From: Pseudomonadota bacterium
GTDB lineage: Bacteria > Pseudomonadota > Alphaproteobacteria > GCA-2731375
Length of the DNA: 52,951 bases
Reading direction: 5' to 3'
Assembly: GCA_027623205.1 (NCBI GenBank)
Contig: JAQBYC010000017.1
Span: 1-52,951 of the forward strand
The notes under the pieces were generated by a model. That model had not been told where the DNA came from, made no database searches, and saw nothing but the letters and a program-made list of their open reading frames with translations. Every line of letters starts with the position of its first letter. The first letter of the stretch is position 1. Below, in pieces: positions 9,129 to 15,316 of the stretch. The translations under genes and the position numbers were made by a program.

Positions 9129-10415
9129 CTAGCGCCGCCGTATATGCGGCCATATCAAACTTGCCAGGACCAAGGCGACGATGCCTTCGCCGGTCATAAT
9201 GCTGACCGCCATGGCGCCACCGAACCGGTCAGCCAGCAGGCCCAATTGCAGCACGCCGAGAGGGTTCACCCCGATGCAGACGGCCAGCACGCCCATCAAC
9301 CGGCTGCGCATTTCCGGTGGGGCGGCGGTAAAGATGATGGTGCTTTGCATGGCGGCAAAGCCGGCAACGCCCAGCCCGCCCAGAAATAAAATGCCCAGGG
9401 ACAGGGAGTACCATTGGGATAGGGAAAAGGCGAAAATGGCGCAAAGAAAGACCACCGAGCCATAGTAATAGATCCGCGAGAAATGCCGGGGCCGGGCCAA
9501 GTTGGCGATCACCGTGGCCCCCAGCAATGCGCCTGTGGCATCGGCGGAGAGCAACAGACCCGTGGCGACCGCTTCCTGGCCCAAAACCTGTGCGCCGATC
9601 ACCGGCACCATGGCCCCATAGGGAAAGCCGAATAGATTGACCACCATGGTAATAAACAGCGTCCCCATGACCCGCGGATCGGAGCGGATATAACGCAGAC
9701 CCTCGACGATCTGTGCCAGCATCCGTGGCGCGGGGGCACCGTGCGCCGTGGCCTCATAGCGAGCCCCCCAGACAAACCAAAAGCCCAAGGAGAACAATAC
9801 AGCGCCCAGAAGGTAAATCCCCGGTAGGCCAAAGGACTGCAATACCAGGCCGCCCAGGACGGGACCCACCAGGCGCATGCAATGATTGGTCGCGCTGTCC
9901 AGGGTCATGGCGACGCCGGCGCCGTCCGTGCCGGCCTTGTTGCCCGCGATGATGCCCAGCATGGTGCGCCGGACCGGGAATTCCAGGGTGCCGTACAGGC
10001 CGGAGGCAAAAGCGCCCAGGGCCACATGCCATAGCTCAATCCGCCCGGTCAGGGCCAGAAAGGCCAAAACGCTCGAGATCAGAGCCAGCAAGCACAGGCC
10101 GCATAACAACATAAGCCGCCGGTCAAAACGGTCGGCGATGGCGCCGGTAAAGGCGCTGAAAAACAACATGGGCAGGGTGCGCACCATGGTCAGCAAGGCC
10201 ACCATCAGGGCCGAACCGGTAACCTCGAAGGTGAAGACGCCGACAGCCAGGATTTCCAGCCAACGCATCATCCAGCCCAGGCCGCCCGCCAGCCAGATGC
10301 GGCGGAAATCCTTGTCGCGGATCAGAATTCGGGGCGTGACCGCGGCCTGACGCCCCCTGCCGGCTACCACGCCGGTCGCCGCCCTGGCCGCGGATTCGCC
10401 ATCTAATTCGGACAA
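9129..10415 (-). CDS. MFS transporter (enterobactin-exporter-like, MFS_3 type)
   Basis: A 428-residue transporter with about 12 hydrophobic segments and the MFS signature ADRFDRRLM after TM2; the C-terminal half carries PPEMRSRLMGVL. It resembles drug/siderophore exporters of the EntS/MFS_3 group. It is a paralogue of the transporter at 29180-30385. It starts only 9 bases after the stop of the UGA-containing GrdB-like gene, hence probably one transcript. The start here is a TTG with only a weak GGGG before it; the N-terminal 28 residues precede the alignable region, so the exact start is uncertain. Confidence 0.87.
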   Translation of the reverse strand: MSELDGESAARAATGVVAGRGRQAAVTPRILIRDKDFRRIWLAGGLGWMMRWLEILAVGVFTFEVTGSALMVALLTMVRTLPMLFFSAFTGAIADRFDRRLMLLCGLCLLALISSVLAFLALTGRIELWHVALGAFASGLYGTLEFPVRRTMLGIIAGNKAGTDGAGVAMTLDSATNHCMRLVGPVLGGLVLQSFGLPGIYLLGAVLFSLGFWFVWGARYEATAHGAPAPRMLAQIVEGLRYIRSDPRVMGTLFITMVVNLFGFPYGAMVPVIGAQVLGQEAVATGLLLSADATGALLGATVIANLARPRHFSRIYYYGSVVFLCAIFAFSLSQWYSLSLGILFLGGLGVAGFAAMQSTIIFTAAPPEMRSRLMGVLAVCIGVNPLGVLQLGLLADRFGGAMAVSIMTGEGIVALVLASLIWPHIRRR

Positions 10416-10424
10416 AATCCCCGC

Positions 10425-11297
10425 TTAATCACCCGCCGCCGCTTCAGCCAGCCGGCGGTCTTCCTCCCGCTGATAGCGCACGGTCAGGTCGCGGGGCTGG
10501 CGCACATCGTCGGCGGATTGGTCCGCGGCGGCGTTTTTCCAGGCGTCGCCCCCAGGCCAGGTTTGTGCCAGCGGAACGATCTCGCCGGGGCTTTGGATGC
10601 TCTCGAACGCCGCCATGGCCTGCCGCGCGATGGCCAATTGCTGTTTCGGATTAAAGGCCGGCCCGCCGCCATGGCCTAAAGGAAAATCCATGAACACGGC
10701 CCGTGGCGGCCAGCCGAACTTGACGATATCCAGGGCCGTCCCCATGCACAGGGTCGGAATGCCGCGGGCTTCCAGGTAACGTGCGATCAGACACACGGTC
10801 TGATGACATACCGGTCACAACGGCACCAGATAGGCGACATCCACGCCTTCCGCCGCAAAGGCAGCGTGCAGGGCCGGGGCCAGCTCTTCCTCAACCCGCC
10901 GTTTTGAATAGACCGCTCCCATGCAGGAGAAAAAATTGTCCCCGATGCCGCCGATCACGCCTTCCGCGGCGAGCCTCCGCAACGGCTCTATGGGGAAGGC
11001 GCAATTGGCGTCTTTACGGGCGTCGGGCAGATAGTTTTCAGTCAGATGGGAAAAGCGCAAGTCCTCTACCGGGGTATCCGACGGTATGACCCGGTGCGAG
11101 GCATCATCCTTGTAGAAATAGGCCACCTGCCCGGCAACATAGGTGCCGGCGGTTGACAGCATGCCGACACGGCACTCAGACAGCGGCTTGGCCAGCGGCG
11201 TCCAGGGCGGCGGCTCCGTCGCCTCGTGCCAGCCATAGGGCGCATAGCCCAGTTTGCTATACTTCTCCCGAATGGTCTTCATATATTCAACAGGCAT
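10425..11297 (-). CDS. GrdB-family (glycine/sarcosine/betaine reductase B-like) protein with in-frame UGA, probable selenoprotein
   Basis: Two open stretches, 10818-11297 and 10425-10814, lie in the same frame and are separated only by one TGA at 10815-10817. Read through, they give one 290-residue protein with U at residue 161 in LVPL-U-PVCHQT, a U-x-x-C redox motif. N-terminal features VGMLSTAGTYV, HLTENYLPDAR and IGGIGDNFFSCMG, and the C-terminal PLGHGGGPAFNPKQQ, match my memory of the proteobacterial GRDB family, whose members carry Sec or Cys at this point. A SECIS-like hairpin follows the UGA. The start is taken at the second ATG (11297), ten bases after AAGGAG; the first ATG (11306) is too close to it. 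The reaction is unknown; it is unlikely to be clostridial glycine reductase, since GrdA, GrdC, GrdD and thioredoxin partners are absent. Alternative: a pseudogene with a nonsense mutation. Confidence 0.82.
10775..10817 (-). promoter_or_regulatory. Putative UGA selenocysteine codon and bacterial SECIS hairpin
   Basis: On the mRNA strand the UGA (10815-10817) is followed by a stem AUCAGAC / GUCUGAU (10798-10804 with 10786-10792) closed by the loop CGUGU (10793-10797). The loop begins 17 nt after the UGA and has G as its second base. Published bacterial SECIS rules ask for a small apical loop 16-37 nt from the UGA with G in the first two positions, so this fits. A lower stem, UGU/GCA and GGUA/UACC, extends it to 10775-10812. 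The hairpin lies inside coding sequence, as in bacteria. Confidence 0.72.
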
Positions 11298-11356
11298 GAC
11301 GTCCATGCTCCTTTTCCAGACTCATGCTTCGATACTAGGCCAGCCCGGTGTCTTGC

Positions 11357-12490
11357 TCAACCACGCGCCAGGGCGCGGGAGATGACCAGTTTCTGGATAT
11401 CGTTGGTGCCTTCGTAGATGCGGTAGACCCGCACGTCGCGGAGGATCTTGGCGACGGGGAAATCTTCCAGATAGCCATTACCGCCAAAAGTTTGCAAAGC
11501 GGCCGAGGCCACTTGTTCCGCCATGTCCGAAGCGAACAGCTTGGCCATCGAGGCTTCCATCAAACTTGGCGCGCCGCTGTCGAGAAGTTCGGCTGCGTGC
11601 AGATACATTTGGCGCCCGGCCTCGATCTGGGTGGCCATATCGGCCAGGCGAAAGGCCACCGCCTGATGTTCAATAATCGGCCTACCGAACGCCTCCCGCT
11701 CCCGGGCATAGGCCAGGGCCGCTTCGTAGGCCGCCCGCGCCCCACCCACCGCCTGGGCCGCCACACCGATGCGCCCGACGGATAGGTTGGCCAGGGCAAT
11801 GCCCAGGCCCCGGCCCTCTTCGCCCAGCATGTCGCTGGCCGGCACCCGCATATCTTCGAGCGCGATGGCGCAAGTATCGTTGCTGCGATGGCCCAATTTG
11901 GCCTCTTCCCGCAGCACTTTGTATCCAGGATTGTCCGTTGGTGTGAGAAAGGCCGAGATCCCCCGCTTGCCAGCCGTCGGGTCCGTGACGGCGATGATCA
12001 TGGCGACGGCGCCGCGCCGCCCGGCGGTGATGAATTGTTTTTGGCCGTTCAGCACGAAATGATCGCCCTGACGGGTGGCCCGGGTCAGAATGGCCGAGGC
12101 ATCGGAACCCGTGTGCGGTTCCGTCAACAGGAATGTCCCGATCATCTCGCCCCTGGTCATGGGCGGGAAGAACCGTTGCTTCTGGACCTCGGTGCCGTGA
12201 TCGCGCAGGGCCGCCATGACCGGTGAATTGTTGGCCGCCATCAGATTGGCGATACCGCCATCAGCGGCCGAAATCTCCTCCATGGCGACGACGTAGGAGA
12301 CGAAATCGGCCCCGGCGCCGCCCCATTCCGGGCCGACGCAGATGCCCATCAGACCGGCCCGGCCCATCCTGCGCATCAGTTCCGCTGGCGCGCCGGTCTT
12401 TTCCCATTGCCTGACGTTGGGCAGAATTTCCGTCTGGGCAAAGCGGCGCGCGGTATCCTGGATCATCCGCTGTTCTTCGCTTAAATGCAT
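11357..12490 (-). CDS. Acyl-CoA dehydrogenase
   Basis: A 377-residue FAD flavoenzyme that would oxidise an acyl-CoA to the enoyl-CoA. Signatures: FLLTEPHTGSDAS, VLNGQKQFITAG, RIGVAAQAVG, QTFGGNGYLEDFPV and the C-terminal YEGTNDIQ, whose Glu is at the usual catalytic base position. The length and FVSYVVAMEEIS resemble short/branched-chain and glutaryl-type enzymes; specificity unknown. Its ATG overlaps the TGA of the EamA gene (TGATG), indicating translational coupling. It precedes the putative selenoprotein by 59 bp. Confidence 0.93.
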   Translation of the reverse strand: MHLSEEQRMIQDTARRFAQTEILPNVRQWEKTGAPAELMRRMGRAGLMGICVGPEWGGAGADFVSYVVAMEEISAADGGIANLMAANNSPVMAALRDHGTEVQKQRFFPPMTRGEMIGTFLLTEPHTGSDASAILTRATRQGDHFVLNGQKQFITAGRRGAVAMIIAVTDPTAGKRGISAFLTPTDNPGYKVLREEAKLGHRSNDTCAIALEDMRVPASDMLGEEGRGLGIALANLSVGRIGVAAQAVGGARAAYEAALAYAREREAFGRPIIEHQAVAFRLADMATQIEAGRQMYLHAAELLDSGAPSLMEASMAKLFASDMAEQVASAALQTFGGNGYLEDFPVAKILRDVRVYRIYEGTNDIQKLVISRALARG

Positions 12491-14143: not shown

Positions 14144-15316
14144 ATGACAAGGCCGATGATCAGGGCGATGCTTTGGGCCGTGGCGGCGGGTCTCGCGCTC
14201 GCGGCGGCTGCCGTGCGGGCGCAAAGCCCGCTGGCCGATGCCCATATCCACTACAGTCATGATGCCTGGGACATGTTGCCGCCGGCCGAGGCGATCAAGG
14301 TCTTGCGCCAGGCTGGCCTGAAAAAGGCGTTCGTTTCCTCTTCCAGCGACCAGGGGACACAGATGCTCTACGAACAGGCGCCGGATCTCATCGTGCCCGT
14401 GCTGCGGCCCTACCGGCGGCGTGGGGAAACCGGCACCTGGTTCCACGATGATAGTGTCGCCGACATGGTGGCGGGCCTTTTGGCAAAGAATACTTATGCC
14501 GGCATCGGCGAGTTCCACCTCTTCGGCGAGAATGCCGATCTTCCCGTTCCCCGGCGCATGGTGCAACTGGCGGCGAAGCATAAGATATTCCTGCATGCCC
14601 ACTCCGATGCCGACGCCATTGCGCGTATCTTTTTGCAAGACCCGGACGCACGGGTGCTGTGGGCGCATTCCGGTTTCGACCAACCGGCCGCCATCGCGGT
14701 GATGTTGCGTAAATACAAGAATCTATGGTCGGACCTGGCTTTCCGTTCGGATCATGCCTCGGACGGAAAGGTCGATCCCGAGTGGCGCAGAATTTTCATG
14801 GAATTTCCGGACCGCTTCCTGATCGGCACCGATACGTTCGCCCCGGAACGCTGGTATTTCGTGATCGAGCATGCTGCATGGTCGCGGGCGTGGCTCGCCG
14901 GTCTTCCCAAGGACGTTGGCGAGAATATCGCCTACCGCAATGCCGAGACCCTGGCCAACTGGGCCTTGGGGGGCGATGGTTCCACCTGTGCCTCGGGGAT
15001 TACGATGTCGAAAGACGGCTATCGCCTGTCCTACGGTTTTGAACCCGCGGCGATCCAGGTTGGCCGGCCGTTCGCAGTGCGGATCGCTGTATGCGCTCCG
15101 GAGAATGCGCCGTTTGCCGGCGAGGTACGGGTGGGCGCGGCCATGCCGGCGCACGGCCACGGCATGAACTACAAACCCGCTGTACAAAAGACCGCCCCGG
15201 GCCTGTATTATGCCCAAGGCCTGATGCTGCATATGCGCGGCCATTGGCAGTTCAATTTCCAACTGCTTACGGAGACGGGGATTGTGCGCCTGGGCGCCGA
15301 TCATCAGCAAAAATGA
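14144..15316 (+). CDS. Exported amidohydrolase with C-terminal YtkA-like domain
   Basis: A 390-residue protein with a signal peptide (residues 1-26, ending AVRA-QS). Residues about 30-275 form an amidohydrolase TIM barrel: DAHIHYSHD (His34, His36), HAHSDAD, WAHSGF and IGTDTF would hold the metal. The barrel is followed by a beta domain (about 290-390) with MPAHGHGMNYKP and HMRGHWQFNFQL, the hallmark of YtkA-like domains, which are associated with copper or respiratory proteins. The barrel-YtkA fusion is unusual in my experience. The next gene, a di-haem cytochrome, overlaps by four bases (ATGA), so the two are translationally coupled and probably act together in the periplasm. Confidence 0.82.
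   Translation: MTRPMIRAMLWAVAAGLALAAAAVRAQSPLADAHIHYSHDAWDMLPPAEAIKVLRQAGLKKAFVSSSSDQGTQMLYEQAPDLIVPVLRPYRRRGETGTWFHDDSVADMVAGLLAKNTYAGIGEFHLFGENADLPVPRRMVQLAAKHKIFLHAHSDADAIARIFLQDPDARVLWAHSGFDQPAAIAVMLRKYKNLWSDLAFRSDHASDGKVDPEWRRIFMEFPDRFLIGTDTFAPERWYFVIEHAAWSRAWLAGLPKDVGENIAYRNAETLANWALGGDGSTCASGITMSKDGYRLSYGFEPAAIQVGRPFAVRIAVCAPENAPFAGEVRVGAAMPAHGHGMNYKPAVQKTAPGLYYAQGLMLHMRGHWQFNFQLLTETGIVRLGADHQQK

Follow-up and report, generated by a model that had tools for sequence, protein, structure and literature searches.

A predicted PrdB-like selenoprotein with a UxxC motif, encoded across an in-frame UGA codon in an alphaproteobacterial genome

Selenoproteins of the proline reductase type with a UxxC motif were described in 2005 from the Sargasso Sea, where 42 genes encoding selenocysteine (Sec) were found (PMC1088965), and the Global Ocean Sampling data yielded 235 Sec and 110 Cys sequences with the UxxC motif under pfam07355 (PMC2398784). 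PMC9312934 lists PrdB-type selenoproteins among those most widespread in bacteria, and the family is also covered in PMC13188914. For Alphaproteobacteria, formate dehydrogenase was the sole selenoprotein family listed by Zhang et al. in 2006 (PMC1794560), and a literature search for the PrdB-like subfamily in this class found nothing specific. The gene described here fits the marine metagenome proteins by family and motif, sharing with them the superfamily, the UxxC motif and the occurrence of Sec with Cys homologues, and differs from them in its setting: a whole genome with six paralogues, the full Sec machinery and a negative search for PrdA/GrdE. It is a well-supported additional member of the known PrdB-type selenoproteins, a family known since 2005. 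A preliminary description of the locus had proposed a probable new selenoprotein; the selenoprotein assignment is upheld by the SECIS hairpin, the Sec/Cys exchange and the machinery, but the family is not new, having been catalogued between 2005 and 2008 (PMC1088965, PMC2398784). What is new, as far as searched, is the multi-paralogue whole-genome setting, the absence of PrdA/GrdE and a SECIS contrast between matched Sec and Cys versions.

The gene lies on the minus strand of the window (the whole stretch of 52,951 nucleotides that was analysed) and runs from 11297, or alternatively 11306, to 10425, in the following surroundings:

9129..10415, minus strand: MFS transporter gene, 9 nt downstream (Pfam, synteny)
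10425..11297, minus strand: predicted PrdB-like selenoprotein gene, 290 aa with Sec as residue 161 (joined frame, family match, orthologues)
10782..10808, minus strand: predicted bacterial SECIS hairpin with stems of 3 bp and 7 bp; loop CGUGU at 10793-10797, G at 10796
10806..10808, minus strand: codon of the presumed resolving Cys of the UxxC motif (Cys167 when counted from ATG 11306; conservation of 90% or more across 42 sequences)
10815..10817, minus strand: in-frame TGA (predicted Sec codon), residue 1 of U-P-V-C (site codon TGA or Cys in 141 of 141 homologous hits)
11308..11313, minus strand: AAGGAG, probable ribosome-binding site, 10 nt upstream of ATG 11297 (direct sequence reading)
11357..12490, minus strand: acyl-CoA dehydrogenase gene, just upstream, starting at ATG 12490 (Pfam, synteny)

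A table-11 listing of open reading frames splits the gene at the TGA. As had been claimed, the two stretches share one frame and are separated only by this codon; the preliminary description gave no strand, which is minus. If TGA 10817-10815 is translated as Sec, no stop interrupts the frame between ATG 11306 or 11297 and the TAA at 10427-10425. The joined protein reads ...VDVAYLVPL-U-PVCHQTVCLIARYLE... around the Sec site and contains the proposed U-PVC (U-x-x-C) motif at the split. The upstream ATG 11306 would give 293 aa with Sec164. Because the AAGGAG element is separated from ATG 11297 by 10 nt and from ATG 11306 by only 1 nt, the former is the likelier start, and this spacing supports the start at 11297 and Sec at residue 161 as first proposed.

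Among curated models, the best match is PrdB (TIGR04483; E = 6e-39), followed by the GrdB models (E of about 1e-6; TIGR01918, E = 1.4e-6), while PF07355 scores 16.8 with a gathering cut-off of 22. By this significant model match together with a UxxC redox motif at the conserved site, the gene is assigned to the PrdB/GrdB superfamily. The original label, GrdB-like/PF07355, is right only in a loose sense, since the PF07355 score falls short and the nearest model is PrdB instead. The PrdB subunit of clostridial D-proline reductase is homologous over residues 30-247, has a Sec codon that aligns with the TGA here and shares UxxCH, although the motif here is UPVCHQT and the clostridial one UGTCHR. 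Homology to GrdB of glycine/sarcosine/betaine reductase (PF07355, TIGR01917/01918) is weak and confined to around residues 96-228, and the protein has 290 aa compared with 431 model positions. Proteins annotated as 'glycine/sarcosine/betaine reductase selenoprotein B family protein' (Roseomonas, Haematobacter plasmids) belong to the same family, with 36-39% identity and an uninterrupted frame, as do homologues from Bradyrhizobium and others (likewise 36-39% identity and uninterrupted), in which Cys replaces Sec, these having been selected by a Cys pattern.

These likenesses raise the question whether the gene encodes a true D-proline reductase subunit PrdB that works with a pyruvoyl PrdA, as the top-ranking TIGR04483 match and the TGA at the aligned site of clostridial PrdB would suggest. 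The match of 133.9 bits, however, does not reach the equivalog cut-off of 300, and clostridial PrdB sequences form a clade of their own (support 100/100) with the present gene outside it. Moreover, whereas clostridial PrdB has PrdA, a profile search of the source genome (G000; 5.0 Mb, 228 contigs, 96.9% complete) found no PrdA/GrdE pyruvoyl subunit (PF09338), while the same search matched Acetoanaerobium and Peptoclostridium records, including beside prdB, as positive controls. The neighbours, furthermore, are acyl-CoA dehydrogenase and MFS transporter genes and not prdA, prdC or prdD. Because no pyruvoyl partner was found in the genome with a working positive control, the identity as D-proline reductase was rejected and is considered very unlikely; taken with the models below cut-off and the separate clade, the functions of D-proline and glycine reductase are both unsupported. 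For GrdA (PF04723) there was no match in G000, in a search in which no positive control matched either.

The gene order around the orthologue is partly conserved. An acyl-CoA dehydrogenase gene upstream with a DUF427 gene beyond it occurs in five genomes besides G000, and in three of these five, all of the same genus, the MFS gene is also found downstream; more distant orthologues lack these neighbours. The source genome contains five PrdB-like paralogues (L002-L006) of 30-40% identity, each with one in-frame TGA and all at the same site. They are distributed over contigs C113, C202, C154 and C129, two of them about 6 kb apart on C113, and each has a SECIS-like hairpin. L004, L005 and L006 adjoin genes for CoA-transferase III, acyl-CoA dehydrogenase, enoyl-CoA hydratase or thiolase, L002 is near genes for a GMC oxidoreductase and a luciferase-like monooxygenase, and L003 is near an O-methyltransferase gene. 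The neighbours suggest an acyl-CoA-related setting of the gene. Elsewhere in the window, at 14144-15316, a 390-aa open reading frame gave no Pfam match at 1e-5 and is kept in a same-genus relative with 83% identity.

The preliminary description had proposed a search of the source genome for selA, selB, selC and selD, and all of them are present: selA and selB lie side by side on contig C213, the tRNA-Sec gene with anticodon UCA (TCA) is on C209 and selD is on C63, so that the Sec pathway is complete in G000. The tRNA-Sec and selB genes are located on different contigs, in contrast to the nested arrangement described in other Alphaproteobacteria (PMC8124441). The selD gene (L024; G000:C63:21997-22926) has an in-frame TGA of its own within GGGUGSK and is itself a predicted selenoprotein gene. 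A second match to the SelD family above the curated cut-off (L025; G000:C163:12743-13660) has no internal stop and is located inside a 794-aa open frame, possibly as part of a fusion protein.

An AlphaFold2 model computed from a 42-row alignment predicts one alpha/beta domain (mean pLDDT 90, pTM 0.89) that is unbroken across the Sec site, with a strand at 157-161, Sec at 164 and a helix at 165-180 (numbering from ATG 11306). Invariant in 42 of 42 sequences are D99, P105, the Sec/Cys position, the next Pro, E179, G182, R202, G211 and G215. Foldseek of the model against the PDB gave no match at E < 0.001, a sequence search for solved relatives of the protein found none, and structural re-alignment returned generic alpha/beta (Rossmann-like) matches only (best Z 8.0), so that no substrate is revealed by the structure. 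Truncation can occur at any Sec codon under selenium-poor conditions, and this would speak for the TGA as a real stop, with two polypeptides or a regulated 160-residue product as the functional form. This reading is nevertheless very unlikely: the downstream part would start within a helix, at the catalytic motif; each Cys homologue is one unbroken protein; and the genome has the machinery for Sec.

A single protein read through the TGA is also indicated by the conservation of this codon. A comparison with homologues, looking for Cys or Sec at the site, had likewise been suggested beforehand, and in 141 homologous hits the aligned codon is TGA (54), TGC (65) or TGT (22) and no other. Neither of the refuting outcomes named beforehand for the genome and the homologues, a lack of selB/selC or a residue other than Cys or Sec at the site, was observed. 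The 87 Cys hits include 80 loci that were retrieved by a pattern requiring Cys, whose Cys is thus present by construction; outside this set the tally is 54 TGA versus 7 Cys hits, duplicate loci included. Most homologues found belong to Alphaproteobacteria. Fifteen genomes from the same bacterial family, most of which have six to ten PrdB-like paralogues, gave 93 matches, of which 92 carry TGA; the remaining one is a 31-aa fragment that does not cover the site. Two of the 92 have further stops, either TAG or TAA. Of 289 genomes sampled across the class, 24 had matches at 1e-30 or better, mostly with TGA. One PrdB-like match (G104:C22:157310-158176) has a TAG as its only internal stop. When 16 orthologues were compared, 15 had TGA and one, L136 with 59% identity, had Cys (TGC), this being among the seven Cys hits outside the patterned search. 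TGA is kept in all same-genus orthologues and three more distant ones, and 12 further genomes from the same bacterial family retain it in their orthologues, several of these at a synonymous divergence well over 1 per site. Purifying selection persists downstream of the TGA: in pairwise codon comparisons of orthologues at 78-91% identity, dN/dS is 0.07-0.20 before and 0.13-0.27 after the TGA, and remains at 0.11-0.26 past it when the first 20 codons are omitted, with no other stop.

Directly behind the TGA, folding gave a hairpin with a 7-bp apical helix and the loop CGUGU, which begins 17 nt past the TGA and has G at position 2; loop distance and G agree with the preliminary description. On energy alone this hairpin is mildly better than shuffled sequences (z = -1.8 for the single sequence; 12 of 200 shuffles as good) and an Rfam search gave no gathering-level match, while the comparative evidence makes a SECIS element convincing. 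Across 44 distinct TGA sequences, the drawn helix is paired in 90.5% of cells, compared with 22-40% when it is slid by 1-3 columns, there are 31 double-change cells versus 8.4 in shuffles, and none of 500 shuffles attained the observed covariation score. Since the peptide that they encode is almost identical, the Cys homologues serve as the best control. In the fixed register, 41 of 45 distinct TGA sequences but only 3 of 81 Cys sequences form a helix of 6 bp or more (Fisher p = 7e-25, a value to be taken only as a guide because related sequences are not independent), and within the HQT peptide the counts are 40/41 for TGA and 3/78 for Cys. Furthermore, the Val codon is GTG in 53 of 54 TGA versions versus 17 of 86 Cys versions, and the following Ser is encoded by AGT in TGA versions (28) while the Cys versions mostly use AGC (67). 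Codon choice and helix contrast together point to selection on the RNA, beyond that on the protein alone. Four of the 45 TGA sequences are without a 6-bp helix in the exact register, two of these being the divergent L148 and L006. L148 (G136:C20:324147-324941), whose sequence downstream of the TGA does not form the shared apical helix in its usual register and has a minimum free energy of only -8.7 kcal/mol, may have been recently converted or may use a different SECIS.

The same data bear on the interpretation as a pseudogene or sequencing error, in which a Cys codon (TGC/TGT) would have mutated or been misread to TGA. The TGA is one base from the Cys codons and callers of open reading frames split the gene, yet it is kept in the orthologues of same-family genomes, in the more distant orthologues and in all five paralogues, dN/dS stays low past it, and the TGA versions carry SECIS-specific synonymous codons that are rare in the Cys versions. 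Pseudogene, sequencing error and split gene were rejected on the grounds of conservation, codon-level constraint and Cys homologues, and such an origin is extremely unlikely. A reading of UGA as Cys or otherwise, for instance by a UGA-decoding tRNA other than tRNA-Sec, would agree with Cys at the site in homologues but deserves next to no credence, given a standard tRNA-Sec with SelA, SelB and SelD and a SECIS structure that accompanies UGA and not the Cys codons.

The locus is thus almost certainly one intact gene for a predicted Sec-containing PrdB-like oxidoreductase, and the features of a bacterial selenoprotein, namely an in-frame UGA in a conserved coding region, Cys homologues, a SECIS hairpin at the proper distance with G among the first two loop bases, and selA/B/C/D, were all found. 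We infer that Sec is incorporated at TGA 10815-10817. In the proposed mechanism, SelA would make Sec-tRNA(Sec) using selenophosphate from SelD, and SelB, docked on the SECIS hairpin that immediately follows the UGA, would deliver it to the ribosome, so that UGA would be read as Sec and translation would run on to the TAA at 10425. This would place Sec in a strand-loop-helix U-P-V-C motif at the helix start, where the selenolate, with the Cys as resolving thiol, would most likely reduce a small organic substrate, or cleave it reductively, by two-electron chemistry of the thiol type. No pyruvoyl subunit such as that of D-proline/glycine reductase would take part, and the acyl-CoA dehydrogenase and transporter genes next to it suggest a catabolic setting. 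Judging from neighbours and motif, the most likely role is that of a stand-alone UxxC selenol/thiol oxidoreductase that works in catabolism on small organic molecules; for the catalytic part, thiol-type redox chemistry without a pyruvoyl subunit, we would put the chances at about even.

The gene is real and intact and not a pseudogene, and with six PrdB-like proteins and SelD the predicted selenoproteins of this bacterium number at least seven. For the prediction of SECIS elements, the matched Sec and Cys versions, which differ in the hairpin, form a clean set of natural data. Since the pyruvoyl partner is absent, the names 'proline reductase' or 'glycine/betaine reductase' are probably wrong as to function for these widespread proteins. 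Stand-alone PrdB-like selenoproteins may, with the balance lying near the middle, represent a functionally distinct class of selenol oxidoreductases that has no pyruvoyl subunit and would serve acyl-CoA or organic-acid catabolism and not Stickland reduction of amino acids.
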